From IMG/VR virus record IMGVR_UViG_3300047445_000050, positions 1 to 23,353 of that record: a stretch of 23,353 bases of DNA; one strand, 5' to 3'. This DNA is from a virus. This document shows, in pieces, positions 1-20,732 of the stretch. Positions within the stretch are counted from its first letter, which is position 1, and every line of letters begins with the position of its first letter. Made by a program: the position numbers and the translations under genes. The notes below the pieces were generated by a model. It saw nothing but the letters and a program-made list of their open reading frames with translations, had not been told where the DNA came from and ran no database searches.

Positions 1-28
1 CGAAGTAGGCCTTGATTTTAGCGATCAT
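1..28 (-). CDS. Start of a further lysis-region gene, cut by the window edge
   Basis: On the minus strand an ATG at 28-26 overlaps the TGA stop of the endolysin gene (25-27) as ATGA. The nine visible codons read MIAKIKAYF and run off the left edge. The tight stop-start overlap is the same coupling used through the rest of this operon, so a real gene is likely. Its place directly after an endolysin makes a holin or spanin-type membrane protein plausible, but nine residues cannot decide this. Confidence 0.5.
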
Positions 29-735
29 TTCTTGAAGATCCTCAGAATGGCCGCGATCAGTGTTGCAACGAACGCGCCGAGCGAGCCGGGCGACGGGTTC
101 GTGATGGATGGAGGAGCTGGCTTGGCGGGCGCGTTCGGGACTGGCGTGATCTTCGTGCCCGTGAACGTGATGGTCGGATCAAGCGCCATCAGCGCCATCA
201 GCATGGCTGCGCAGCCCATCTGTTTATCGACCACGTTCTCAATCGGCCCATGATCAACGACCACCTTCCCGCCTGGTCCGGTCGGAGGGTCATAGATCGA
301 GGTGCCCGAGAACACGTAAGGCGACGGCCTCCCGGAGTTGAAATACCGCAAGCCATTGTACGCCTCAAAGGCCGCCAGAGCCCCGCCAATGCTCCAGTCC
401 TTGTTGCGGGCGGAGTAAGGCTGGCAGTTTTTCAATGCATCCACGGCGCCCGCTTCCCATGTGGTGAACGGTCCACGGCCGGCGGGAACATGAACCGAAA
501 CCCTATCCAGAGGGTCGCCCTGCCCGAGCTGTGTGTTCCAGTTCTGGGAGGCTTCTCGCTCGTGCACACAAGCAACGAACCACCAGGGCACGCCTGTAAG
601 TTTTTCTACGGCCTTGTACCGTGTCTTGGCCCTAAAGAGCCTAGCGGCGGTCATGCCGGCCTCGGTTTTCCGAGTCAGCTTGGCTTGTGCCCAGCGCTTC
701 GCGTTCGCCGCAGACATGGCGTTGAGGTCTAACAT
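25..735 (-). CDS. Endolysin (lysozyme-like) with C-terminal hydrophobic anchor
   Basis: A 236 aa peptidoglycan-degrading enzyme that would open the host wall at the end of infection. The catalytic-type domain spans about residues 45-185. Visible marks are GVPWWFVACVHERE (48-61), with E59/E61 as candidate catalytic acids, then GDPL (73-76), SVHVPAGRGPF (80-90), a WEAGAVDAL stretch (93-101), EAYNG (124-128) and SPYVFSG (138-144). This order fits a phage and cyanobacterial lysozyme-like family known to me by its HxxE...GDPL...VPAGR...EAYNG pattern. A proline-rich linker (about 198-217) leads to a hydrophobic segment (about 218-233) ending in KK, so the enzyme may be membrane-tethered. The first ATG (735) has little upstream ribosome-binding signal. 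An internal ATG at 654 (residue 28) follows GAGG with better spacing and would keep the whole domain, so the start is uncertain. Function is fairly sure; the exact bond cleaved is not. Confidence 0.8.
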   Translation of the reverse strand: MLDLNAMSAANAKRWAQAKLTRKTEAGMTAARLFRAKTRYKAVEKLTGVPWWFVACVHEREASQNWNTQLGQGDPLDRVSVHVPAGRGPFTTWEAGAVDALKNCQPYSARNKDWSIGGALAAFEAYNGLRYFNSGRPSPYVFSGTSIYDPPTGPGGKVVVDHGPIENVVDKQMGCAAMLMALMALDPTITFTGTKITPVPNAPAKPAPPSITNPSPGSLGAFVATLIAAILRIFKK

Positions 736-1032: not shown

Positions 1033-2772
1033 TCAGCATCCGCCGTAGGTATTTGCCAGCGCAGTGCTGAAATGCGTTCCGCCTCCATTCCATGAATTGG
1101 GCGCTATACAACTCAGTGTTGTAACAGAGGTTACGAGTGTTCGTGCAGTTGATGTGTTCAAATAGTTGTCGCCAAAATTTCCACCCGTCACGTTGTTGTA
1201 GCGCACCGGAGTAGCCGTGGTGCTGACACCTGCATTGACGACGTTGTGCAAGAACGTAGGCATGGCGATTGTACCGCTGCCGCCATTGAAGTTGACCAGC
1301 GCATTCGCGGAGCAGCTTGATGCGTTAACGACTTCCTCGAAATAGTTGCTATTTACAACAGGCTTGGTGCCACTTTCGATAGTCGTACAGCCAGCCTGCG
1401 TGACATTGTTGTAGGAGAAGTTGAATCCTGCGGCGCCTGCCACGAATTCGAATAGACTACCGAAGGTCGAGGCTCCGTAGAGGAAGTTGTTCTGAATGCG
1501 GAAGCTGTCAGAAACGTTTGCGAGATGGATGCCTCCATAGACCTTATTGAAGGTGATATTGCCGCCTTGAGAAGGCGATGACGTCCCATTGCCGACGTAG
1601 ATTGAATGATCGTTGCCGCTTTCTCCGATGAAAACGTTTGTGATGTTGAATTGGACGAAATTCGCGGCAGCGCTATCGGACAACACCAGACCACGCTTCC
1701 CATACCGCTTGTACATGATGAATGTCGGCGGGATGAATGCGGGCGCCATGCCAATGCTGAAGCCACTCCAGCTAATATTCGTCCAATCGTAGCCGCCCGT
1801 ACCGTCCACGAAGAGGTTATCGACAGTTGACGGGATGTCAGGGAACGTCATCAAGTTGGAGAAATGACCGTCACCGCGAATGGTGAAGGGCTTGTTCTGG
1901 AGCAGGGAATACGTATTCGCGCCCTGCTGGCGGATCACGCAGCCAGTGTGCGAACCTGGAATATAGAGCGTTCCCCCGAACGGTACACCAGTCATCGCCG
2001 CCTGAATTGCCGTGGTGTCATCGGTGCCATAGACGAACGGAGCCGTGTTCGTTGCCGCGACCGTGCTCAGAGTCGTTGATGCATTCGTAGCAAGCGTGAC
2101 CTGTGTAGCGCTGACGAAAGCGAGGATTGTGGTAGAGAGACCAGCACCCGCAGCACCCGCACCGGGGACATAGATCCTCTTACCAACGTCAGCCGAGGTA
2201 AAGGTAGAGCCCGACGACGTCAGATTCGGCGTTCCTGACGTGATCGAAAGATTGGTCGAAGGCTGATCGAAATTTTGATTGGACTGGAAAATTCCGTCGC
2301 ACTTCGCTCCGTACCAATAGATACTGGTATAGCCCAGCGCCTTGGTGCAGACAGACGGCACGAGCGAACACAGCGCATTGAGCGAGGTCGCGACGAAATT
2401 CCCGTTAGACCCATTCGAGGCCAGCAGATCTCCGGCGTTGTTCGTCGAGTTGTCGGCGCCCATGCCGCCGCGCGCCGTAGCAAGAAAGCCAGAAGTGATG
2501 TTGGCCGCATTGGTCGTATCCGTTGAGCACGACGCAGCCGCATTCGATAGCGCACTGCATGGCGCCGTTTGGAACGAAGGGTCCGCAGCCGCCCCGTTGC
2601 TGCGCATGAATTGACCGGACGCGCCCGGCGCAGCGCTGCCAAAACCGCTAACGCCAGCGCCCTTCCCGACCGGGACGGCATGATTTGAAACCGTTCCAGT
2701 GTTCTGAGCTTCAGCACTGGAGGCAATAAAAAAGGCCGCCGAAGCGACCAGAAAGTAACACCAGCATTTCAT
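1033..2772 (-). CDS. Beta-helix tailspike-like protein with a Sec signal peptide
   Basis: A 579 aa protein read from ATG 2772; the open frame extends to 2928, but that part overlaps the preceding gene and looks like read-through. Residues 1-22 form a signal peptide: MKCWCYF, a hydrophobic core (about 7-17) and an SSAEA|QN signal-peptidase I site. Residues 23-70 carry tail-fibre-like sequence (GSAAPGASGQFMRSNG, then AAADPSF). A pectate-lyase-type beta-helix follows: GAKCDG (about 155-160), an inserted module with FTSADVGKRIYVPGAG, then DDTTAIQAAM and GGTLYIPG, then short Asn-rich strands typical of a right-handed helix. The mature chain has ten cysteines, several closely spaced (CSALSNAAASC, CSLVPSVC). 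The family binds or cleaves surface polysaccharide at the virion tip, like P22 gp9. Export of a virion part would be odd; it could instead be a secreted depolymerase. A GGAG lies 12 bases before the ATG, longer than usual. Confidence 0.8.
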   Translation of the reverse strand: MKCWCYFLVASAAFFIASSAEAQNTGTVSNHAVPVGKGAGVSGFGSAAPGASGQFMRSNGAAADPSFQTAPCSALSNAAASCSTDTTNAANITSGFLATARGGMGADNSTNNAGDLLASNGSNGNFVATSLNALCSLVPSVCTKALGYTSIYWYGAKCDGIFQSNQNFDQPSTNLSITSGTPNLTSSGSTFTSADVGKRIYVPGAGAAGAGLSTTILAFVSATQVTLATNASTTLSTVAATNTAPFVYGTDDTTAIQAAMTGVPFGGTLYIPGSHTGCVIRQQGANTYSLLQNKPFTIRGDGHFSNLMTFPDIPSTVDNLFVDGTGGYDWTNISWSGFSIGMAPAFIPPTFIMYKRYGKRGLVLSDSAAANFVQFNITNVFIGESGNDHSIYVGNGTSSPSQGGNITFNKVYGGIHLANVSDSFRIQNNFLYGASTFGSLFEFVAGAAGFNFSYNNVTQAGCTTIESGTKPVVNSNYFEEVVNASSCSANALVNFNGGSGTIAMPTFLHNVVNAGVSTTATPVRYNNVTGGNFGDNYLNTSTARTLVTSVTTLSCIAPNSWNGGGTHFSTALANTYGGC

Positions 2773-2815
2773 AATCGTTAGTCTCTCCACGACGTTCTGG
2801 GTATTTCCATGAGAC

Positions 2816-4237
2816 TTATCCGCGCCAGCTTGCTGAGAGCAGCATTTGAGATTCCGTTCCGAAAAACGTCTGGCCTGAGCCAATCGTGCCCGCCGTCGCT
2901 TCAAGCGCAGTGACAACGTTGACCCCAAGAGATGGGGGCGCCGTGTAATTCGATTGGGTCGTCATGAACAGCTCAAACAGAGATGACGCGCCGGTAAAGA
3001 CGAACTGAGCACTACCCTGCTGTCCAGATGACGTAGTGGTTGAATTCCAACCGATGGCGTTGAAGTTGCCGGCATTGAAAGACGCCGCCGTACCGTTCAC
3101 CACCGTTTGCCTTTGGGAGAATGACGTGGTGTAGGACTCTTCCGGCAGCCCAGAGAAAACGGTGATGCTATTTGCTGTGTTGTTATTGGACGGATGAAGG
3201 CTAGTCGAGACGGGCGTCCAAGACCCAGTCGAGTCACCAGCCTTCACGATAATATTTTGCCTGTTGTAGGCATTCCAGACGCCCCACTTCCGCGACTGAC
3301 CATATGAACGATAGCAACTCACCTGTCCTGCTGCGGAATCGATGAATATTGATCCAAGATAAGTCCCCTGGTTGGCTTGGATTGAATAGGTGTTCGAACT
3401 ATTCTTGCCAGACATAGACACGGCGTTGACCCACACACCATTGAGGCGAGTCAATTGGGTCGTACCAGCTCCAGATCCACGGGCGCCACTTCCGGCAGTC
3501 GAGGTCGTCCATGCTGGTCCGACAACCAGAGTGGTGACACCTGAATTGTTGAAGACAAAGACATCGTATATCGAGTTCGCCGTCTGAGACGCTGTGAGCG
3601 TTAAGGTGAGTTCGGAAAAAACGGTCGGGGAGAAGGAACTACCGTTATAAATGGGCACAAGATTCCCGACGTAGGGCGTGTAAAACACGCTCGATGAGCC
3701 AATGACATCGCCCGGGATGACCGGAGTTTGGCTCGTGAGAGTAAGGTATCCTTGCGGGGGGGGCACGACCGCCGCTGCGGTTGACGCATTTACGGCAGTC
3801 CACACGGCGGTTGAAGCAGTTCCCGTGGTCGTACATACGTACAGGATATTGTTGGTCGTATCCCAGTAGGTGTCCGCGCCAATGCCCGGAGAGCCCGCCG
3901 CGCCAGCCGTATTGCCATTCGGGCTCCCTGCCCCCGAAGACAACTTGGCACGAGTCGAAAAGTCCGAGGAATAGACCGGATCATCCGTCCAGATGACGTT
4001 GCTGTTAACGTCCGAAAGGACTACCTTATAAGCCAGATTTTGCAGAAAGATGTTGCCGGCCCGACCGGCGGAATCCAATACCACCGGATTGGTATTGGCG
4101 ATCGTAAGGGCCGAGTCCGAATAGGTCGCGAGCGGTGTTGAAGTGCCGGAAGCGTAGAACGCCAGAGAGCCGCCAGCATACGGAGCGCCTGTGGCATCTG
4201 CGAACTGCTGGTTAGGGGAGTAGAAGCGATTGGCCAT
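2816..4237 (-). CDS. Tail fibre / receptor-binding protein
   Basis: A 473 aa protein whose start is ATG 4237, six bases after GGGAG; the open frame runs four codons further to TTG 4249, which would lie in the terminator T-tract. Residues 1-90 are a common particle-binding N-terminal module of phage fibres: NRFYSPNQQF, GGSLAFYASGTSTPLATYSD, NPVVLDSAGRA and YKVVLSD...VIWTDDPV. Residues about 95-160 are a Gly/Ser/Ala-rich linker with a small beta module (ADTYWDTTNNILYVCTT). The remainder (about 165-473) is Ser/Thr/Asn-rich beta sequence I cannot assign; it is presumably the receptor-binding part. A run of eight C (minus strand) encodes PPP at residues 159-161, exactly at the junction between anchor and receptor parts. 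The gene sits after the ejection genes and before the tailspike, in the usual receptor-binding region. Confidence 0.8.
   Translation of the reverse strand: MANRFYSPNQQFADATGAPYAGGSLAFYASGTSTPLATYSDSALTIANTNPVVLDSAGRAGNIFLQNLAYKVVLSDVNSNVIWTDDPVYSSDFSTRAKLSSGAGSPNGNTAGAAGSPGIGADTYWDTTNNILYVCTTTGTASTAVWTAVNASTAAAVVPPPQGYLTLTSQTPVIPGDVIGSSSVFYTPYVGNLVPIYNGSSFSPTVFSELTLTLTASQTANSIYDVFVFNNSGVTTLVVGPAWTTSTAGSGARGSGAGTTQLTRLNGVWVNAVSMSGKNSSNTYSIQANQGTYLGSIFIDSAAGQVSCYRSYGQSRKWGVWNAYNRQNIIVKAGDSTGSWTPVSTSLHPSNNNTANSITVFSGLPEESYTTSFSQRQTVVNGTAASFNAGNFNAIGWNSTTTSSGQQGSAQFVFTGASSLFELFMTTQSNYTAPPSLGVNVVTALEATAGTIGSGQTFFGTESQMLLSASWRG
3756..3763 (-). repeat. C8 homopolymer inside the tail-fibre gene
   Basis: Eight consecutive C on the minus strand (G on the plus) encode three prolines at the anchor-receptor junction of the 473 aa fibre. 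Adding one base would move translation into a frame that stops at 3645; losing one would stop at 3601. It is the longest single-base run I noticed in the window. Confidence 0.9.
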
Positions 4238-4247
4238 TACGGCTCCC

Positions 4248-4271
4248 AAAGAAAAAGGCGCCCGAGGCGCC
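4248..4271 (-). terminator. Intrinsic terminator after the ejection-protein genes
   Basis: On the minus strand GGCGCC-TCG-GGCGCC forms a 6 bp GC stem, followed at once by TTTTTCTTT. It lies between the stop of the 963 aa gene (4294) and the fibre gene. The T-tract runs directly into the GGGAG ribosome-binding site of the fibre, so there is no room for a separate promoter; fibre transcription must come from read-through, antitermination or RNA processing. Confidence 0.85.
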
Positions 4272-7185: not shown

Positions 7186-8543
7186 CAGCGAGCCTGATCG
7201 TGATGCAGGATGAATGCAGACATGCCCTGCCCGTACTTCTCGTCAAACTTACTGGCGAGCTTGGGATCGCCCTTCATCATATTGATTGCAGCCGGCGGGA
7301 TGGCATTGGCAACCGCTGTCTTGGAATAGAGATCGGGCGGGAATTGTTTATTGAACTCAACGTCAGCACCGAAGGTGTTGCCGCGATGAGACTTCGCGTA
7401 ATCAGTCGCGAAAGTATAATAGTCCTTCTCGCGCTGGATTGCCTGCCTAATGCCGGACGAAACCAGCTTAAAGCCCATCGGCGTGCTTTCAGCGCCAGGC
7501 ACGGCGCTCACCGACGACTGTACAATGGTTGCAGCCTCGCGAGAGCCAAGGGTCCGCGCTAGATCAAAACCCGCTCGCGTGGTCTCTTTGTTCAAATCTT
7601 CCCAGTTAGCGATCTTATTCGGGTCAATAGCCGACGGGAGGCCCACAGTCTGCAAGAGAGAGTTGACCGACTTAGCCGCACTTAATTTTGCGTTTGCGCC
7701 CGCGCCAGTCGAGGACCAGCCGGCAGAATTAAGAACATCCGCGCTGTGATCCATCATATCGAGGCGCATGCTAAGACCCTGCGCCGTCTGCGCGACCTCG
7801 CCTGCTTTCTTGTATTGCTCGACAGACTGCAATTGCAGGGCGTTTGATGCCGGCGTGACCGAAGATGAAATCGTACCATCCGGGCCTTTAACAATTCCGG
7901 GGGTGAACATGTCACCCTTGAAACGATCATTAAACGATGGTGCCGCTGGTTGCTTGGGAACGCTTGGCAACGAGCCATCAGAATTAGGTACGATTGTATC
8001 CGTGAATTGCTTCACGGGTTGACCTGCCGTTCCAGTGGCCACAGCGGTACGATTGCTATAAGGAACATTCGGCTGAACCGGCTCCGGCACGTAACGTCCA
8101 GCCTCGCGGGTTGTATTGGCTGCCGGAACGCCGCTCTGCTCGATATTGGTAGACGACGACTGTCCCAACCGCTGCGCGTTCAGCCCATACTGCTTCACCT
8201 GCTCAGGAGGCGCCGACATCAGGTGGCCCTCCGTCAACGGGTCGATGGGAACACCGGCGCGCTTGGCAAGACTGATGGCCTGCTGACGGGCCTGCACGCT
8301 CTGATCATTCGCCAGAATGTTGCCGATCGGCCCCATGGCTTTAGTCATGGTGTCTGTCATCGTGGCGCGCTGGCCTGAGGTTAGTCCGCCATTCTCGCCG
8401 TATTCGCGCTCGCGCTCGCCGTAGGACTGCTGAAGGATATCGCCCTTGATCGTCGATTCACGAAGCGCTGCGGCCTTAGCCAGCGCCCCGCCAACGTCCA
8501 GAGGCTTAACGCTTGCAGCCAGCGAGTTGTCGATTTCAGGCAT
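7185..8543 (-). CDS. Internal virion / DNA-ejection protein (gp20 position)
   Basis: A 452 aa soluble-looking protein. It starts with an ATG overlapping the previous stop as TAATG, and its own stop overlaps the next start as TGATG. The N-terminal 110 residues are helical and charged (REREYGENGG, then TMTDTMTKAMGPIGNILAND). The middle (about 130-235) is Pro/Ser/Thr/Asn-rich and probably extended. The C-terminal half is helical again, with LQLQSVEQYKKAGEVAQ and a long amphipathic region to the end. No enzyme motif is visible. Its size and its place between a small Gly/Ala-rich protein and a very large one match P22 gp20. The role is inferred: packaged inside the capsid and expelled ahead of the genome. 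Confidence 0.65.
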   Translation of the reverse strand: MPEIDNSLAASVKPLDVGGALAKAAALRESTIKGDILQQSYGEREREYGENGGLTSGQRATMTDTMTKAMGPIGNILANDQSVQARQQAISLAKRAGVPIDPLTEGHLMSAPPEQVKQYGLNAQRLGQSSSTNIEQSGVPAANTTREAGRYVPEPVQPNVPYSNRTAVATGTAGQPVKQFTDTIVPNSDGSLPSVPKQPAAPSFNDRFKGDMFTPGIVKGPDGTISSSVTPASNALQLQSVEQYKKAGEVAQTAQGLSMRLDMMDHSADVLNSAGWSSTGAGANAKLSAAKSVNSLLQTVGLPSAIDPNKIANWEDLNKETTRAGFDLARTLGSREAATIVQSSVSAVPGAESTPMGFKLVSSGIRQAIQREKDYYTFATDYAKSHRGNTFGADVEFNKQFPPDLYSKTAVANAIPPAAINMMKGDPKLASKFDEKYGQGMSAFILHHDQAR

Positions 8544-9292
8544 TAGTAGCCGGCTCCGTAGTCAGACGCATTCAAGCCAGCAAGCGGGTTTGCAGAGCTA
8601 CCGCCCCATTCCCCGCCACCGCCATATGCCGGTCCAGAACCATAGCCGCTTGGATTGCGGTTCATGTAATTGTACATGAGCGAATTGCTGATGCCGCCAT
8701 TGGCCGCGTTCGCGATACCAACCGCGCCCGATGCCTGCGCTTGTCCCTGCCCCATCATCGTATTGCCGATCTGACCGGCTCCCGCCGTGTTGTTCGAGGC
8801 GTTCCCTGTCACAAGGTTGGCGTTCGTATTGGTCGCAGTCTGGCCGATGCCAGCAAGCCCCATCAGTCGATTGAAGTAATTCCCGTACTGCTGAGAGGCC
8901 AAACCGCTGTTGAACGTGGAGAGGTCCTTCAGCGTACTACCGGACAGATTAAGCCCGCGCGCATTTGCCCCGCGCTCGATCCCGAGCTCGCCCTGCTGCT
9001 GAGTAAAGGCATAGGATGGATCTTTGAAGAAAGACGAGTAATCCGGCTGTGTGTTTCCGTTGCCGCCGCCTGTAAGCTGGCCCAGCGTGTAAGTCGCGTT
9101 CTTTCCAACATCTAGATACGGCTGCAAGGTGCCCTGCGCCGCCTTCATATTCTGCTGGTTGGTGTCGAAGGTCTGTTTCTGGAAATTCAGTGCGTTGTTG
9201 GCCGCATCGGACTGCTTGTTTGCAGCATACATAGAGGCGCCAGCGCCCAGAACAGCGCTTCCGACAATCGCGCCGCTAACAAAGAAGGCCAT
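8543..9292 (-). CDS. Small DNA-ejection protein (gp7-like / DNA transfer protein type)
   Basis: A 249 aa protein starting at ATG 9292 (TGATG overlap with the cupin-like gene). Residues 4-24 are a Gly/Ala hydrophobic segment (FVSGAIVGSAVLGAGASMYA), followed by a Gln/Asn-rich helix (ANKQSDAANNALNFQKQTFD), the classic opening of phage DNA-transfer proteins. The middle holds LQPYLDVGKNA, DPSYAFTQQQG and RGANARGLNLSGS...L..F, all seen in that family. The C-terminal third is Gly/Asn/Ala/Ser-rich and probably disordered, with GYGSGPAYGGGGEWGG near the end. P22 gp7 (229 aa) is the nearest functional model: it enters the cell envelope first during DNA ejection. It is the best supported of the three ejection genes. 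Confidence 0.75.
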   Translation of the reverse strand: MAFFVSGAIVGSAVLGAGASMYAANKQSDAANNALNFQKQTFDTNQQNMKAAQGTLQPYLDVGKNATYTLGQLTGGGNGNTQPDYSSFFKDPSYAFTQQQGELGIERGANARGLNLSGSTLKDLSTFNSGLASQQYGNYFNRLMGLAGIGQTATNTNANLVTGNASNNTAGAGQIGNTMMGQGQAQASGAVGIANAANGGISNSLMYNYMNRNPSGYGSGPAYGGGGEWGGSSANPLAGLNASDYGAGY

Positions 9293-9723: not shown

Positions 9724-10160
9724 CGCAGCACAAACCCGCCAGCACCGCCGTCAAGCGAGTCCACATAGGTGAAATCGTAGAGAAGCCCAGACGTGATGTC
9801 CCCCGTCGTCGCCTGCGCCGCCCCGTTCGATTTGAATACCTTGATTGTTGCAAGATTGCCCTGCGGCGTTGCAACCAAAGCCGTCACCGTTCCGGTTGTT
9901 GTGTTTGCGGCGACGGCGCGGAAGGTATCAAAATCATAATAGCCTTGAACCAGCGGCGCTGTATCCAGCATGGTCAGAGTGATGACATTCGTGCCAGATG
10001 CAATGCACGGCACCGTTCGATTGGTGCCGTTGATAAAACCGAACATGCCTTGCAGCGTCTGCCAACCATTGTTGGTCAACAGGCCCGTACTATCAACCAA
10101 AGGGTTGCGCTGCTGTGGCTGTAACAGTGACGGGACTTGTGCAGAAGCCGGGATCGTCAC
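9720..10160 (-). CDS. 146 aa neck/tail structural protein, paralogue of the 235 aa protein
   Basis: It starts with GTG at 10160 (GTGA overlap with the gp10-like stop) and ends overlapping the cupin-like start by 4 bases. The N-terminus (RNPLVDSTGLLTNNGWQTLQ) resembles a short motif common at the start of phage neck and fibre proteins, roughly PxVDxxGxxTxxW. From residue 50 on, VPCIASGTNVITLT, then a beta-rich stretch, then DITSGLLYDFTYVD and GAGGFVLR match the middle of the 235 aa product (IPCTAAGTNAIVLT ... GEIQSGWYYTAAY ... GAGGFQL). The two thus share a domain of about 95 residues. It occupies the P22 gp26 (tail needle) position but has no long coiled coil, so it is not an obvious needle. 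Likely virion component; exact role unknown. Confidence 0.65.
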   Translation of the reverse strand: MTIPASAQVPSLLQPQQRNPLVDSTGLLTNNGWQTLQGMFGFINGTNRTVPCIASGTNVITLTMLDTAPLVQGYYDFDTFRAVAANTTTGTVTALVATPQGNLATIKVFKSNGAAQATTGDITSGLLYDFTYVDSLDGGAGGFVLR

Positions 10161-11569
10161 GGCTCACCCACGGTAATATCAGCATTCGCGCTAATGATTA
10201 CCCGCTTGACAGGATCGCTGATCATGACCCGGATAATCCACTGTCTGGCCTGCCCCATCCGAAACCACCGAGCACGCTGGAGATAGGCGCCGATCTTGCC
10301 GAGTGAATTCCAGAGTTGCGGCGTTTTGAAAGTCCTCCCGCCGTCCGTGGAGTAGTCCATCATGATCTGCGGATCGCTACCCTGCCCCGAGTTCAGACCA
10401 ACGCCGCTTTCAATGTCGAGCTCAAACGTAGAAATATAGATGCGCTTCCGGTCCTTGTGGATCGGCGGCGATGTCATCAAGGCGCGCATCGTATTGCCGA
10501 ACTCTGTGAACGTGTTCGCGTCCAGATATCCGATCTTGCCGGAATAGGCATCGCCAATGAGCACCTTGCCGAAAGCAGTCAAACAGCAATTGCCGCGCCA
10601 GCGTCCAAACGAGTTATTGTTCTGATCCCAGGATTCACGCTCATGCCAAAGACCTGTTGCGATATCCAGAACCCAACTCGCATTTGCGGTCGGGAACACC
10701 AGATTGACGAACTTGTGGCCCTCGAACGTGTACGAGAACGTATAGGCGTCGGCAACCGTACTATAAGATTGGAAAGCCTGCTCAACGGCATGCGTGCTAA
10801 CCCGCATGAGGCTAATGCCATTAATGCGGTAGAAAATCAGATCATCGCCGAGGAAAAAGACAGAATTGTCTTCCTTGATGGGCGTTAAGAGAGCAGCGCT
10901 TCCGCGCTCGATGGTACTGGCCCCCGTCCGTTGGAACGGGAAGTTGATGGCACCAGCATCATACCATCCCTCAATCGTCTTCTGACCGAAGATTAGAAGG
11001 TTTTCTTGCTGGTTAACAATCGACAGGACATAATCGCTCGACACTTCCGCCGAGGCAAAATCGGCCCCGTTGTAGACCGTGCCATCAAGCGAACTTGAGA
11101 TGAAGAACTTATTCGTATTCGCCCAATCAAACACGAAATAGTTGTCAAAGAACGTGACGGTATTCGCAGCGTGAAAGTTGGCGTCCGTAATGACCTGGAA
11201 GCCAGATGTCGCAGACCAGATGAATCCATTAACGCCGTTAACGATGCAAACCTGCGTGCCATTGTTCGCCATCGGCGTGAAGGCGGTCCCGCCGATTGAT
11301 CCGCCAATGTCCGTAACCACTCCTGTAGAGGTCAGGCTATAAAGTCTCTGGCCTGACACCACATAGGCCACGCCGTTCATGAACGTGAAGCCGCGAACTG
11401 GTCCAGTACCGCACGATGCGAATTGCACCAAACCAGGCGAACCAAACACGGCTACCTGAGTTTTTGCGTCCGGCGGTTCTTTCTCGGCATAGCAGTTGAC
11501 CACGCGCTGGGCACTAACCGGAAGAGATCGCGAGTTGTAGGAATTCGTCGCGAACTGAACGACGGTCAT
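10157..11569 (-). CDS. gp10-like packaged-DNA stabilisation protein
   Basis: A 470 aa protein, close to the 472 residues of P22 gp10. It begins at an ATG overlapping the previous stop by 4 bases. The opening SRSLPVSAQRVVNCYAEKE followed by GSPGLVQF is the typical start of this family. The rest is a run of beta repeats with alternating strands (VRGFTFMNGVAYVVSGQRLYSL, then similar blades), as expected for a beta-propeller-like fold. In P22, gp10 forms a hexameric ring below gp4 that closes the portal channel after packaging and carries the spikes. The gp4-like gene lies immediately upstream, as in P22. Confidence in the family is good, based on length, opening motif and neighbours. Confidence 0.8.
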   Translation of the reverse strand: MTVVQFATNSYNSRSLPVSAQRVVNCYAEKEPPDAKTQVAVFGSPGLVQFASCGTGPVRGFTFMNGVAYVVSGQRLYSLTSTGVVTDIGGSIGGTAFTPMANNGTQVCIVNGVNGFIWSATSGFQVITDANFHAANTVTFFDNYFVFDWANTNKFFISSSLDGTVYNGADFASAEVSSDYVLSIVNQQENLLIFGQKTIEGWYDAGAINFPFQRTGASTIERGSAALLTPIKEDNSVFFLGDDLIFYRINGISLMRVSTHAVEQAFQSYSTVADAYTFSYTFEGHKFVNLVFPTANASWVLDIATGLWHERESWDQNNNSFGRWRGNCCLTAFGKVLIGDAYSGKIGYLDANTFTEFGNTMRALMTSPPIHKDRKRIYISTFELDIESGVGLNSGQGSDPQIMMDYSTDGGRTFKTPQLWNSLGKIGAYLQRARWFRMGQARQWIIRVMISDPVKRVIISANADITVGEP

Positions 11570-15874: not shown

Positions 15875-16495
15875 TTAGACGCCGGCAATCAGGTTTGCGA
15901 AGCGCGAGTTATTGAGCTTCACAAGCCATTTTGCATTCATGTTGGTGTTCGCAGCAGTGCCGATAGCGTTATCAGCCTGTTGCAGCGGGCGGATGATTTT
16001 CACATCCAGGGTGTTGGTGGTGGCAACGGTCGAAGCCGCCATCTGCCAGCCCGAATAGCCGGTCACGGTCGAGCCGGCACCAGCAACCAGGTTGGCGTTC
16101 TTGCCAGCCCAAAGGTTCGGAGCGGTCGCCTGCGCAGAAGCGTCGTCCTGAAGCTCGAACAGGAGGTTCGGATCGTCCGCGATCGCAAGATACTGAGCCG
16201 TCGAGGCCGGGTGATACACAGGCAGATCACGGGTGACCGTGTTCATGTTGCCCATGTCGCCGCCGTTGATGATGCCGACCACAACGCCAAGGTACGGAGA
16301 GCCGACCGTGGCGAGCTTGACGGCGGGAATGCCGTTGGCATCGTTCGAGGACGAGATGATATCGACGGGGTCGCCGACAAAGAGCGCCGTCGCGTAGGCC
16401 GCCGGCACGAAGTAGGTATTGAAGGAGCCGTTGTATTTCTGGCCCCAAACAGTAGCGTAGGGGATGAGCCCACGCGCAACGTTTGCGTTTGCCAT
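15875..16495 (-). CDS. 206 aa probable accessory head (decoration/stabilising) protein
   Basis: ATG 16495 is preceded by AAGGATTTCCTT; the ribosome-binding AAGG can pair with the CCTT next to the ATG, a small hairpin that could temper translation. The protein is hydrophobic-beta in style: GLIPYATVWGQKYNGSFNTY, FVGDPVDIISSSNDANGIPA, GSPYLGVVVGIINGGD, LPVYHPASTAQYLAIADDPN, LLFELQDD, and a C-terminal WLVKLNNSRFANLIAG. This layout, a short beta protein coded just upstream of the capsid gene and ending 15 bases before it, is common for head accessory proteins in podoviruses. No named family is certain. Its stop lies just before the capsid ribosome-binding site, so the two are likely made together. 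Confidence 0.65.
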   Translation of the reverse strand: MANANVARGLIPYATVWGQKYNGSFNTYFVPAAYATALFVGDPVDIISSSNDANGIPAVKLATVGSPYLGVVVGIINGGDMGNMNTVTRDLPVYHPASTAQYLAIADDPNLLFELQDDASAQATAPNLWAGKNANLVAGAGSTVTGYSGWQMAASTVATTNTLDVKIIRPLQQADNAIGTAANTNMNAKWLVKLNNSRFANLIAGV

Positions 16496-16574
16496 AAGGA
16501 AATCCTTAAAAGGCGTGAGAAAGCATCGCGCTCAGCCATTGGCTGGCACGGGTGAAACGAAAGAGGCTGTTGAG

Positions 16575-17030
16575 TTAGCCTTTGGACGAGATCTTGATGC
16601 CCTGCTTGGGCACGTACTGACCTTCGCCTTCGGGGCCGTCAGCAACACCACGGCGCATCGAGTCTTCCTTGGCGTCGATGATCCGCTGTTCCTGGGCCAT
16701 ATCTTGGTTGTACCATTCCTCGGGGATTTCCATCAGATAGGCCGTCAGTGCACCGCCACCCTCGGCAGTACCGACCACCCGGCTCACTGGCTTGGCATCC
16801 CGGTCCTTGACGTGCTCGTAACCTGCCTCAAGAGCACGGCCAACGCGGCCTGGGATGTCATTGAACCAATGACGGTGGAAACCTTCCCTTTGGGGATAAT
16901 CGAGCTTGAGGCTCATTGAGCCAAAGGGCTTGCGTGCTGGACGCTGCGGGAGATCCGTAGCCGGAGCTGCCGGAGCGTTCATGTCATTCCTCGGACGGCC
17001 GGGACCGCGACGTTCTGTGACTTCGTTCAT
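16575..17030 (-). CDS. 151 aa protein with an AT-hook-like N-terminus
   Basis: ATG 17030 follows GAGG by five bases and lies five bases past the scaffold stop; an in-frame GTG at 17045 would overlap the scaffold gene. The N-terminus MNEVTERRGPGRPRND contains GPGRPR, which matches the Arg-Gly-Arg-Pro core of AT-hooks that bind the minor groove of DNA. A Pro/Ala linker follows, then a folded part: SLKLDYPQREGFHRHWFNDI, GRVGRALEAGYEHVKDRDA, SRVVGTAEGGGALTAYLMEI and EEWYNQDMAQEQRIIDAKED. I have seen this kind of protein beside scaffold and capsid genes of other phages, always hypothetical. A link between genome DNA and the growing head is conceivable. A 79-base spacer to the next gene holds only a weak 5 bp hairpin and that gene's ribosome-binding site. 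Confidence 0.65.
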   Translation of the reverse strand: MNEVTERRGPGRPRNDMNAPAAPATDLPQRPARKPFGSMSLKLDYPQREGFHRHWFNDIPGRVGRALEAGYEHVKDRDAKPVSRVVGTAEGGGALTAYLMEIPEEWYNQDMAQEQRIIDAKEDSMRRGVADGPEGEGQYVPKQGIKISSKG

Positions 17031-17035
17031 CTGCC

Positions 17036-17866
17036 TCAATCCCACTCGTAATCTTTGACGTATTTCTCTTTGGTGTAGCCCGGAATGTTCTTGACGAATT
17101 TGTCGCAGGCTTTCTTGGCCTCTGCGGGCAAATCGTCATAGGTCCGGCCCGCCGGTTTCTTCGGGCTTGCAACCCCGCCAGGAGCCGCTACAGCAGCCGC
17201 GCCATCGCGCTTGGGGTTGACACCGAACTTCTCCGGGAAGCGATCCACGGTGCGCTGCTTGGTCTCTGAAAGCAGTTCTGAGCGGCTTTTGCCGGGGAAT
17301 TGCTTTTCGAGGTCGCCATATACTTCCGTGGCGTACCCACGGAGAGCCATCGACTTGTTGAACCAGTCGTTCTGATCAATCCAAGACTGGATCTCGGGAT
17401 CGACAGTGGGCTTGTCGGGCTCGCCAACTGGCTTTGGCTCTCGCTTGGGAGCGGGTTCGCCGCCCTGAAGCTCGGAGATTTCAGCCCTGATCTGGCGGGC
17501 CTGCGTTACGTCTGCGGTCTCGATCGCGGCATCAAGCCTGCGCTCAAGATCGCGGAGCGCCTTCTTGTGCTCGCGCTCGGCCGACTTGCGGACCAGATCC
17601 TCGACACCAGCGGCGGCTTCCTTGGTCTCGCGCAGTTCCTTTTCGAATCGGCTGACCGTATCGTGCAGCTTCTTGTTATCGCGCTGCAAAATGGGAAGGA
17701 TCGTCTCGCCGCGCTGAAGGAATTCCTCAGCGGAGCGGTGCTTGTCGGGATCGCCCTTGAATTCTTCTTTCGAAACCCAGCCAAGGCGGCGGGCTTTCGC
17801 CTCGGCCTCGTTGGCTTCCGGCAATGCGCCGTCAGTCCCAGCTTCCGCCAGGTTAGCTTCTGTCAT
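17036..17866 (-). CDS. Scaffolding protein
   Basis: The start is ATG 17866, eight bases after AGGAAA; the open frame extends 86 codons further up, but that part runs antiparallel in composition through the co-chaperonin gene and is not protein-like. The 276 aa product is highly charged. Residues about 26-48 (ARRLGWVSKEEFKGDP...) match the opening of phage scaffold proteins, followed by AEEFLQRGETILPIL, a long coiled coil (about 60-140), a Pro/Lys-rich linker, and a C-terminal part with DNDWFNK-like QNDWFNKSMALRGYATEVY, an Ala/Gly/Pro stretch and a basic-aromatic end (KNIPGYTKEKYVKDYEWD). Scaffolds use such an end to bind coat protein. Its position between portal and coat agrees. Confidence 0.85.
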   Translation of the reverse strand: MTEANLAEAGTDGALPEANEAEAKARRLGWVSKEEFKGDPDKHRSAEEFLQRGETILPILQRDNKKLHDTVSRFEKELRETKEAAAGVEDLVRKSAEREHKKALRDLERRLDAAIETADVTQARQIRAEISELQGGEPAPKREPKPVGEPDKPTVDPEIQSWIDQNDWFNKSMALRGYATEVYGDLEKQFPGKSRSELLSETKQRTVDRFPEKFGVNPKRDGAAAVAAPGGVASPKKPAGRTYDDLPAEAKKACDKFVKNIPGYTKEKYVKDYEWD

Positions 17867-17879
17867 GACTGTTTCCTGG

Positions 17880-18272
17880 TTAGACTTTCCTGATGCCACC
17901 GATGGCCTTATCATCAACCAGACGATACTTCGCGCCATCGTCGCCGACGATTTCCTTGCCGGCATACTTTTCGAAATGGACCCGATCACCAGCCTTCGGC
18001 TTGTAACCACCAAACGGACGGGTTCGGTCTGAATTCCACGCGAAAGCGTCGTCGCCGATTTCAACAATGACGCCGGACGAGGCCGAGAGCTGCATACGCT
18101 CCACAACGTCGTCAGGAAGGGCAATGTTGCCCTGCGATTTGGTCATTGCGATATCTGGAAGGATCAGGACGCGATCACCAACGGGGGTGCAGCCTGATTT
18201 GTTTTCGCCGGTCCACGGAGCGGCAATGTACTCAACGCGACTAACCGACAGAACCTTGGGGTTCAGCGCCAT
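17880..18272 (-). CDS. GroES-like (Cpn10) co-chaperonin
   Basis: A 130 aa protein from ATG 18272, which follows GAGGAAAG; a TTG four codons earlier would destroy that spacing. The Cpn10 pattern runs from about residue 30 to 127: VGDRVLILPD (31-40), the mobile-loop region MTKSQGNIALPDD (43-55) with IAL in place of the GroEL-binding IVL of GroES, SSGVIVEIGDD (65-75), KAGDRVHFEKYAGKEI (93-108) and YRLVDDKAIGGI (116-127). It is longer than bacterial GroES (about 97 aa) through a 30-residue N-terminal extension and a longer roof region (AFAWNSDRTRPFGGYKP). Phage co-chaperonins such as T4 gp31 replace GroES to fold the coat protein. The gene sits between portal and scaffold, a strong hint of the same job. 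It overlaps the 86 aa gene by 32 bases. Confidence 0.85.
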   Translation of the reverse strand: MALNPKVLSVSRVEYIAAPWTGENKSGCTPVGDRVLILPDIAMTKSQGNIALPDDVVERMQLSASSGVIVEIGDDAFAWNSDRTRPFGGYKPKAGDRVHFEKYAGKEIVGDDGAKYRLVDDKAIGGIRKV

Positions 18273-18501
18273 CACTTTCCTCAATTTTATAGAATGACTC
18301 GATTGCTTCGAATTGAAGCTCTGCTATCTCGCCAAGCTCAATGACTTGGCCGCGAACTGCCGGCGGTACTTCCGCGCCGTCAACCCACATTTCTGAAACG
18401 CGATTGATCAGGAACTCGCGCTTGTCCTTCAGGAACGCTAGAAAGACCTTACTGACCGGATCGTGCTTCCAAAGATTGAACTGCTCTTTGGTCACGCTCA
18501 C
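18241..18501 (-). CDS. 86 aa protein between portal and co-chaperonin
   Basis: Starts at GTG 18501, which overlaps the portal stop as GTGA, and overlaps the co-chaperonin gene by 32 bases at its end. The sequence is helical and charged: TKEQFNLWKHDPVSKVFLAF, LKDKREFLINRVSEMWVDGA, then GQVIELGEIAELQFEAIESF. The DPVSKVFLAFL stretch and overall layout recall small proteins encoded just after the portal gene in other podoviruses, with no proven function. It probably acts in head assembly. Confidence 0.7.
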   Translation of the reverse strand: MSVTKEQFNLWKHDPVSKVFLAFLKDKREFLINRVSEMWVDGAEVPPAVRGQVIELGEIAELQFEAIESFYKIEESDGAEPQGSVG

Positions 18502-20732
18502 GGCGCTGGCGATCCATGATCCGCGGCGAACTTGCTATCCGGGTCCATCCTCAGATTCCCGTCAGGATCGCCCGCAATGCCGCCGTTCATCTGGTCTGTA
18601 TCCGAGATATCAGGCTGAATATTATTGGGCTGGCCCGGCACAATCGGGTGCGCCAGCATGGGGGACTTCGGCGGCGTTCCTGCCGGCTTGCTCGAACCGT
18701 CCGCGCCCTTGGTCGGCGCCATCGCAGCGTCAACCTCGATCTCATGAGCCTTCAGCACCTTGTCGAGCCATGACAGATGCTGGGCACCAACCGCCGCATC
18801 AGCATCGGCCAGCGACTTGATCGCGCTCGCATAGGCCGCAACAGCCTGGGCGTCCTTGAGTTTTGACGAAGACTGCGCCTCATGCCCCTTGATTTCCAAC
18901 TCCATGCCCTTGGAAGCAAGCTCGGGGTTGGGCGGAATCTGCGTAACCAGCAACTCTTCCGGATTATCGATCTCGGCAGCGTCAAACGCGCGCTCAAGGA
19001 TCTTCAACGGCTGCACAAACGGGGTTTGCAGGAAGCCGAGCAGGAACTGAGTCCTCGCCATCTTCTGCATATCCGACACCATCGACGGGTCGGAATAGGG
19101 CTGGACGCCAGAGCCGGTCTGATAATCCTGCTTCAGGACCGATTGCCACTCGCCGCCGGCCTCGAACTGCATTTCCTGCTGACCGTAAACACGGTTCAGC
19201 CGGTAAAGCTTGTTCAGTTCGCTCTTGAGCGCACGGTGAACCCGCTTGTAGATCGCCGTGAAGACCTTCAGGCCCTGCTCGATGAGAGCAAGCGTGGTCG
19301 TCGCCGGCACGTTGGACGCCTTCTGGTCGCCCGTTAGAACGTCCTTGACGGCTGCGATCTCCTTGCCAGCCTCAACCAGGAAGCCCAGCAGCTCGAACAA
19401 GACCGGAGACGGCCCCTTGAAGTCCATCGGCACAAGGTTTTCACGCAGCGTGCCGCCGGAGACGTTGACCGTCTTGTATTCGCCCATCTGGAAGCGAATA
19501 GCGCCTGCGTTCATCGACAATCCCTTGCCAATGAAGCCCCCGCCAGCGTTCTGGAGCGTCGCCGCGTCCAGCATCTGGTTCAGGACGGTGTTGATGCCTT
19601 CGTTGATTGGCCTAAGGAGCTGGCCGAAACCCACGGAGTAGATTCCACCGTCAGGATTGGGGATGAAATCGTACTTGGTGTAATAGTGAACCGGGTCAAT
19701 CTTGGCGATCTTGTGGGTTCGACTATTGAAATGGATTCCATCCGCATCGTATCGGGCCACGATACGCGCCACTGTCTGGCTGGATTTGTGGACGGTAACA
19801 ATATAGGGCTCCGGATAGCCATCCTCGTCCAAATCCCAATAGCGGTGCTGCTCTAGAAACTCGTGCGGCTTATCCCGGTCGCCCTGCGCACCCTCAGCCT
19901 CGCCATACGGCGTCTTGGGCGCCTTGAACGTCCCGGCCCGCTGCATCTCCTCGATCTCACGAGGATAATACTCGATTTCTTCCGTCCCGCGCGCTGCAAC
20001 TTCCAGTGATTTCGCGTTGTAGTTCACCACGAACTTCATCGGCGAGACCATCGCCGACACGTTGCGCCCCTTTGCAGGATCGAAATAGCTCTTGCGGAAC
20101 ACACAGCCGACAATCGGCAGCAAGTGCAGAAGCTGATCGGTCTCAGGCTCCCATTCCGGCTGCTCATCCAAGAGCTGCCAAGACATATGGTCGCCGATCT
20201 GATCGGCCTTGATGCGCTTGGCACCCGGAGGCACCTGCCATACCGGCTGCGGGCCCTGTGGGCCGTTCTGCATCACCGGAGTGCCATCAGGGCCAATCTG
20301 CGGCGTGCCCTTGTCCTGGCCCACCACAACGCCCTTGACGATCTGTCTGCCGTTGACGATGGCAGGATAAGCGCGGGCCGCAAACTGCGTCGCGGCCGTC
20401 GTCACCAAGGGATAGATGATGTTCGCCGCCTTGGGCCATGGGAAGGATTTCTCCTTCGCGACCTGCATGGCGAGGTCCATGGCTTCCTGGGTCTTGGTCT
20501 TCCAGTCTGCCCGGCTGGTGTCGTCGATCTTGTATTCCTCGACAACCCGCGCGCCAATCGTGGTCAGCAGGGTATCATCAAGGTCGTCCGCGATATTTAC
20601 CGCGTCAATCCACTTCTTGAGCTTGCCAATGTGCTCCTGATCCGGTCCGGACGCCTGAGTCTGGGCAATGCCTTCCGGGTTCTGCGCAGACATTCCGGTC
20701 GGCATTACGGGAGCGGCGGCAAGGTCGTTCAT
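18498..20732 (-). CDS. Portal protein (long podovirus type)
   Basis: ATG 20732 overlaps the stop of the 63 aa gene as TGATG; the TTG one codon earlier is ignored. The 744 aa length matches P22-like portals (725 aa). After a Pro/Gly N-terminus, residues about 85-125 contain KEKSFPWPKAANIIYPLVTT and the Ala-rich AATQFAARAYPAIVNG, typical of large portals of the P22 / SU10-like kind. Next come LHLLPIVGCVFRKSYFDP, MKFVVNYNAKSLEVAARGTE, the wing and stem segments (GLSMNAGAIRFQMGEYKTVN, FELLGFLVEAGKEIAAVKDV, LTGDQKASNVPATTTLALIE), then a helical barrel-like part (AIYKRVHRALKSELNKLYRL). The last 100 residues are a helix (DAQAVAAYASAIKSLADA) and a Pro/Asp-rich tail. The dodecameric portal forms the DNA gate and binds terminase, whose gene is close upstream. 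Confidence 0.9.
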   Translation of the reverse strand: MNDLAAAPVMPTGMSAQNPEGIAQTQASGPDQEHIGKLKKWIDAVNIADDLDDTLLTTIGARVVEEYKIDDTSRADWKTKTQEAMDLAMQVAKEKSFPWPKAANIIYPLVTTAATQFAARAYPAIVNGRQIVKGVVVGQDKGTPQIGPDGTPVMQNGPQGPQPVWQVPPGAKRIKADQIGDHMSWQLLDEQPEWEPETDQLLHLLPIVGCVFRKSYFDPAKGRNVSAMVSPMKFVVNYNAKSLEVAARGTEEIEYYPREIEEMQRAGTFKAPKTPYGEAEGAQGDRDKPHEFLEQHRYWDLDEDGYPEPYIVTVHKSSQTVARIVARYDADGIHFNSRTHKIAKIDPVHYYTKYDFIPNPDGGIYSVGFGQLLRPINEGINTVLNQMLDAATLQNAGGGFIGKGLSMNAGAIRFQMGEYKTVNVSGGTLRENLVPMDFKGPSPVLFELLGFLVEAGKEIAAVKDVLTGDQKASNVPATTTLALIEQGLKVFTAIYKRVHRALKSELNKLYRLNRVYGQQEMQFEAGGEWQSVLKQDYQTGSGVQPYSDPSMVSDMQKMARTQFLLGFLQTPFVQPLKILERAFDAAEIDNPEELLVTQIPPNPELASKGMELEIKGHEAQSSSKLKDAQAVAAYASAIKSLADADAAVGAQHLSWLDKVLKAHEIEVDAAMAPTKGADGSSKPAGTPPKSPMLAHPIVPGQPNNIQPDISDTDQMNGGIAGDPDGNLRMDPDSKFAADHGSPAP

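Follow-up and report, generated by a model that had tools for sequence, protein, structure and literature searches.

Tail and virion assembly in tailed phages is conventionally cytoplasmic. Why, then, should a tailspike-type protein of such a phage begin with a signal for export? The question is raised by a gene at 1033..2772 (minus strand) of a 23.4 kb virus record, the whole of which was analysed and is here called the window. Its product is a precursor of 579 aa that opens with MKCWCYFLVASAAFFIASSAEA, followed by QNTGTVSNHAVPVGKG, with cleavage predicted before QN. Removal of residues 1-22 (2707..2772, minus strand) would leave a mature chain of 557 aa with ten cysteines. A Shine-Dalgarno-like GGAGAG, read from the sequence, lies 10 nt ahead of the ATG at 2772 (approximately 2781..2790, minus strand). 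An earlier, sequence-only reading had described the open reading frame, its coordinates and 579 aa length, the signal peptide and the ten mature cysteines, and all of these were recovered as described.

Signal calls were made throughout with our own heuristic, which considers charge, a hydrophobic stretch and the residues at positions -3 and -1. A Sec signal peptide with the cleavage site SSAEA|QN had been proposed earlier, and the window N-terminus, of Sec/SPase I type, indeed combines n-region charge, a hydrophobic core and an A-x-A site, with a score of 11.6. It contains no RR and does not qualify as a Tat-type signal. Among shuffled N-termini, 6/7960 (0.08%) scored at least 11.5, as did 3/2715 (0.11%) internal segments, the true error being a few-fold above these values because several start codons were tried per gene. 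Such calls could in principle be artefacts of a misassigned start or of an N-terminus that is hydrophobic by chance, since signal prediction here is heuristic only. However, against a false-positive rate of about 0.1% per start tested, 40/385 large proteins in the surveyed loci bear a signal, far above heuristic error. Further, the signal core codons of the window and of its relative on contig L006 show 8 identical, 3 synonymous and 0 non-synonymous positions (a small sample), and independent annotators noted a possible signal peptide on two Burkholderia phage fibres, Bcep781 gp49 and Bcep1 gp51. The artefact is thus largely refuted, and we give it only a very slight probability.

The signal also persists among relatives. 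The C-terminal domain (1036..2340, minus strand) was found on only two further contigs in the viral collection, L002 and L003, at 66-69% identity. Their proteins start with MKRLLLTLALLCVSSIASA and MTLLRRLILSFALMTGLAPAFA, each followed by Q, and then continue into quite different N-terminal modules, giving three proteins with three signal peptides and three unrelated N-terminal modules. The module of the window protein (QNTGTVSNHAVPVGKGAG...SNGAAADPSFQTAP; 2557..2706, minus strand) is mobile, and occurs in other phages with and without a signal peptide. Its motif, NHAVPVGKGAG...SNGAAADPSFQT, is present in 80 loci and recurs across many phage fibres, which bears out the earlier description of this stretch as tail-fibre-like. 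Where the module stands directly after the start, 10/10 cases have a signal peptide ahead of it (window, L006, L027, L133-L138 and L147), L134 falling below the heuristic cut-off and being counted by eye. Where it is buried in long fibres, or follows an unrelated start such as MYSTNDLQKLV, there is mostly no signal. The sequence-only reading had held that close homologues without a signal peptide would speak against it; we looked for them and found none, the signal being present in L002 and L003 as well as in the module-bearing relatives. In these proteins, the signal stays while all that follows it is exchanged.

A tblastn search of cultured phages and plasmids with the spike gave no match, none was found when bacterial species genomes were scanned with the spike domain, and an exact DNA pattern of the N-terminal motif hit nothing new and genuine outside the contig of L006 itself. 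When genomes were searched at class and order level with spike or module alignments, signal-less prophage versions were the most that appeared (L119, with 0 cysteines, L128 and L129).

One relative occupies a different setting. The L003 homologue (a virus record from an isolate genome; L003/L218 6720-8897) lies on the opposite strand, kilobases from the tail genes, and adjoins replication and regulator genes on a contig that carries an integrase-like gene. This position is more like that of a cargo gene, and keeps a cargo-gene reading alive. The protein might then serve lysogenic conversion, being expressed from the prophage to coat or modify the lysogen surface and exclude other phages. The L003 arrangement would suit such a role, but the window, a 23 kb fragment, shows no integrase or repressor, and its gene sits in a late cluster between spike and lysozyme genes. 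Moreover, PMC3765740 describes the Bcep781-group phages that have such fibres as obligately or putatively obligately lytic. We consider conversion improbable.

Ten cysteines mark the mature chain, at precursor positions C72, 82, 135, 142, 158, 278, 462, 487, 555 and 579, and two more, C3 and C5, lie within the signal peptide. Those at 158, 278, 555 and 579 are invariant in the shared C-terminal domain, and 462/487 are absent together in L002 and L003. This gain and loss in pairs agrees with the earlier suggestion that the even count reflects a disulfide-forming protein. Judged by co-occurrence, 158/278, 555/579 and 462/487 are probable disulfide pairs and, less surely, so are 135/142 and 72/82.

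The fold is harder to place. The sole significant family match of the window protein is to PHROG 32881 (pectin lyase activity, moron; E 2.8e-14), over residues 176-260 alone (1993..2247, minus strand). Of the pectate-lyase-type helix proposed earlier, this segment offers a hint; no credible match to a Pfam pectate-lyase domain appeared in the protein, even at E 10. Pfam and PHROG searches found no head-binding domain at its N-terminus, a point on which it differs from P22-like tailspikes. Nor did it match any PDB sequence, and a profile search with the C-terminal domain yielded nothing meaningful. An AlphaFold model from 3 sequences reached a pLDDT of 33 and was not used. Glycan depolymerase activity is putative.

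Exported proteins are reported to prefer even cysteine numbers (PMC7678975). A first set took complete proteins that bear a signal and whose mature part has 250 or more residues, made non-redundant at <35% identity; of these, 26 mature chains were even and 1 odd; signal-less proteins of the same loci, among them some spurious frames, divided into 45 even, 63 odd and 81 without cysteine (Fisher 1.2e-7). The lone exception is a signal-bearing fibre with 3 mature cysteines (L115 3646). A second set was drawn from new loci with the prediction fixed beforehand, and gave 16 even (two of them identical) and 0 odd with a signal, against 12 even and 30 odd without (Fisher 3.8e-7). Eighteen proteins have an odd number of cysteines in the signal peptide itself, yet their mature chains are even in 18/18 cases, indicating that the cleaved chain is the balanced one. 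In the pooled set containing these proteins, mature chains are even in 54/56.

The neighbouring spike allows a comparison within one family. Next to the signal-bearing gene, at 2816..4249 (minus strand), lies a tail spike of the A3 family that has no signal but does have a virion head-binding domain. It matches head-binding domains of tailspikes with solved structures (7eeq_A, E 3.3e-9; 9vyg_m, E 9.9e-11), is homologous to the Pam5_18 'tail spike', and is probably the conventional spike of the window phage. Its family, as collected here, comprises 36 signal-less and 8 signal-bearing members, 7/8 of the latter forming one clade nested among signal-less spikes and L081 standing separate. Cysteines occupy alignment columns 12/310 and 728/810 in 8/8, 7/8, 7/8 and 8/8 of the signal-bearing members, respectively, and in 0/36 of the signal-less ones. 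Conversely, column 827 is a cysteine in 34/36 signal-less and 0/8 signal-bearing spikes. Because members of the clade share ancestry, its first two pairs represent a single event; L056, L060 and L066 each gained two additional cysteines. On this alignment, two cysteine pairs were acquired in the clade, and a lone cysteine that is conserved among signal-less spikes was lost. The clade also keeps the virion head-binding fold, as modelled: the signal-bearing spike of L057, predicted at pLDDT 82, matched 9vyg and 7eeq_A in Foldseek (probability 1.00), and its C-terminal part is lectin-like. The signal-bearing spikes alone have no sequence match in PDB, and their head-binding assignment consequently derives from this fold match and from their signal-less homologues.

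These patterns bear on whether the signal is used at all. A precursor that is exported inefficiently or never could enter the virion from the cytoplasm, with its hydrophobic N-terminus as a virion or membrane anchor, in keeping with the cytoplasmic course of conventional tail assembly. Against this stand the parity of mature chains, among them the 18 whose signal peptides have an odd number of cysteines, the retention of A-x-A cleavage sites, and, in the spike clade that bears signals, the loss of a lone cysteine and the acquisition of pairs. We judge an unused or inefficiently used signal to be quite improbable. Retained signal peptides and paired mature cysteines together support export and disulfide folding well, and from the signal, its conservation and its cysteine pairing we infer with high confidence that the window protein carries a genuine export signal and would be exported, cleaved and folded with disulfides.

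How widespread is the trait? Loci were retrieved around the neighbouring spike (47), another fibre module (40) and the window module (80), with some overlap; most signal-bearing relatives are metagenomic contigs. Across about 130 phage loci, signal peptides precede tail fibres and spikes whose architectures are of several unrelated kinds, among them head-binding spikes (L056, L057, L060, L066, L068, L073 and L077). A signal-bearing head-binding and tail-collar protein (L006 3081-4079) matches the PHROG 8763 tail protein over its whole mature part (E 3.7e-51); another signal-bearing protein (L117 4360-5412) matches PHROG 8763 at E 3.7e-36. Further signal-bearing modules include LN..DN..ITP, STINP..NFQAAYNDIN and a T7-fibre-like one, and several modules have signal-less counterparts, among them L119 (no cysteine), L128, L129 and L061. 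In each of L056, L060, L066 and L068, signals are present both on the spike that was identified and on the large fibre-like genes directly after it, and no signal-less spike was seen in the stretches examined. If these phages have tail spikes at all, their sequences suggest that the spikes are probably the exported ones.

With a signal peptide directly before a fibre module, an even number of mature cysteines and a gene among structural and lysis genes, the window protein appears to belong to a widespread, little-noticed class of apparently exported, disulfide-locked phage tail proteins. In the open-access literature, against which alone novelty was judged and where absence is weak evidence, we found no paper that treats signal peptides of phage tail fibres; papers on phiCbK, Circe, JG068 and phi437 do not describe signal-bearing fibres.

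Other features of these loci deserve mention in their own right. Signal-bearing proteins with mature starts such as ADMPLKAPP occur on four phage contigs (L043 11759, L044 10535, L060 16225 and L068 14710), and we take them to resemble Omp25/31-type outer-membrane barrels. Small signal-bearing proteins with a CC motif, RDLGQWxxxxxxxxEWYRxLMxPD..SCCGEADAY, recur at L034 11637, L077 11354, L022 19467, L032 12224, L045 8205 and L035 9454; several have odd cysteine counts, which makes metal- or cofactor-binding possible. A signal-bearing protein with a GHSLGAD motif (lipase/hydrolase-like) directly follows a head-binding spike at L028 19036-19674. The N-terminal third of the L077, L068, L056 and L060 spikes contains an insert, GTITGGS.YTNG.YGGV.LTGGSGTGATANITVSGG..T.V..LNPG..YVVGDVLSA, which is also found in a virion structural protein of Synechococcus phage S-PM2.

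The remaining question is what an exported spike would do. The earlier reading had offered three roles: a spike attached after lysis, a secreted depolymerase, or a surface enzyme of a lysogen. Morphogenesis genes of the window stand in P22-like order: terminase, portal, major head protein, gp10-type head closure (10157..11569, minus strand; PHROG 578), P22-type DNA ejection (8543..9292, minus strand; PHROG 598), spike and lysozyme-like gene (25..735, minus strand). The last was called from the sequence and has no family match, with members of the same family in L006 and L022. The gap between it and the exported spike is filled by a small plus-strand frame (809-1029, about 73 aa) with an N-terminal membrane-type stretch, 2 cysteines and no family match. 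In L022, the closest phage relative (head-closure protein 88% identical), the head-binding spike is followed directly by the lysozyme-like gene (region 16280-18624); no exported-spike gene lies at this place, and the window spike is thus dispensable there. Given this and the signal-less head-binding spike next door, the exported spike of the window looks, from gene content, like an accessory appendage or a free enzyme.

A free role would make it a secreted or surface-associated enzyme or adhesin, exported before and at lysis and never carried on virions, which strips or blocks the surface glycan of the host and its neighbours, such that progeny can leave or find hosts. Signal peptide and paired cysteines would fit such a protein, as would the filing of PHROG 32881 as a moron, the missing head-binding domain, the normal spike alongside and the absence of the gene from L022; WceF of Pantoea provides a precedent (PMC7949094). 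However, the N-terminal module is a tail-fibre module, and a purely free role is hard to see for the head-binding and tail-collar proteins that carry the same signal peptides. We regard the free role as possible but rather doubtful for the window protein, and favour attachment after lysis, as the wider survey does in general because signals are also found on spikes with head-binding domains and on tail-collar fibres.

Under post-lysis attachment, the tail-appendage protein would be made as a Sec pre-protein and carried out by SecYEG during infection, with signal peptidase I removing residues 1-22 and the host periplasmic oxidation system closing up to five disulfides. The folded spike would wait in the periplasm or leak to the surface. 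Once holin, endolysin and spanin open the cell, cytoplasmic particles already furnished with the signal-less neighbour spike would meet the exported one and acquire it as an appendage that binds or cuts glycan; any surplus would act free. In P22, the tailspikes are added to completed heads as the last step, which can also proceed in vitro. Against attachment are the absence of a recognisable head-binding domain from the window spike, the missing gene in L022, the cargo-like setting in L003 and the dilution that post-lysis attachment would work against. For the whole mechanism, attachment included, we see the chances as evenly balanced.

More tentatively, and with somewhat less than even confidence, we propose that many tailed phages of Gram-negative hosts make receptor-binding fibres and spikes as Sec pre-proteins that acquire periplasmic disulfides and join the particle outside the cytoplasm, either at lysis or later. 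Virion assembly would then be a two-compartment process. If head-binding fibres are exported first, the last assembly step lies outside the cytoplasm, and infectivity can depend on host Sec and Dsb. Free spikes could precede virions, and recombinant spikes made in the E. coli cytoplasm with the signal removed would be mis-oxidised. A signal peptide together with even cysteines would offer a genome-mining rule for exported phage appendages.

Known systems resemble the window spike in different respects. Bcep781 gp49 is annotated 'possible tail fiber; possible signal peptide domain', and Bcep1 gp51 likewise; the BcepNY3 counterpart is annotated as a tail spike, and Bcep43 gp48 is near-identical to Bcep781 gp49. 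Like the window protein, all four have a Sec-type signal followed by Q and, in the sequences counted, an even number of mature cysteines (14 in Bcep781, 4 in Bcep1 and 4 in BcepNY3, with odd precursor totals), and the fibre gene sits inside the tail gene cluster. Unlike the window phage, they are Burkholderia myophages with baseplate genes, and the mature sequence is unrelated; Bcep781 additionally encodes a signal-less fibre, gp31. Being cultured, Bcep781, Bcep43, Bcep1 and BcepNY3 provide a laboratory system for the exported-fibre class. With the P22-like podoviruses (Pam1 7EEQ, Pan3 9VYG), the window shares its gene order, a tailspike-type gene adjoining a lysozyme-like gene. Their head-binding domain, however, is found in the neighbour at 2816-4249, whereas the exported spike differs from P22-like tailspikes in its signal peptide, its 10 cysteines and its lack of a recognisable head-binding domain. 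The likeness to PHROG 32881 extends over residues 176-260 in all three homologues, yet is limited to a domain that precedes the presumed helix. WceF of Pantoea stewartii, an exported glycan hydrolase of tailspike fold (PMC7949094), is likewise a tailspike-like protein with an export signal, but is a bacterial enzyme of an EPS cluster with a Tat signal, a P22-type head domain and proven stewartan hydrolase activity (PMC7949094).
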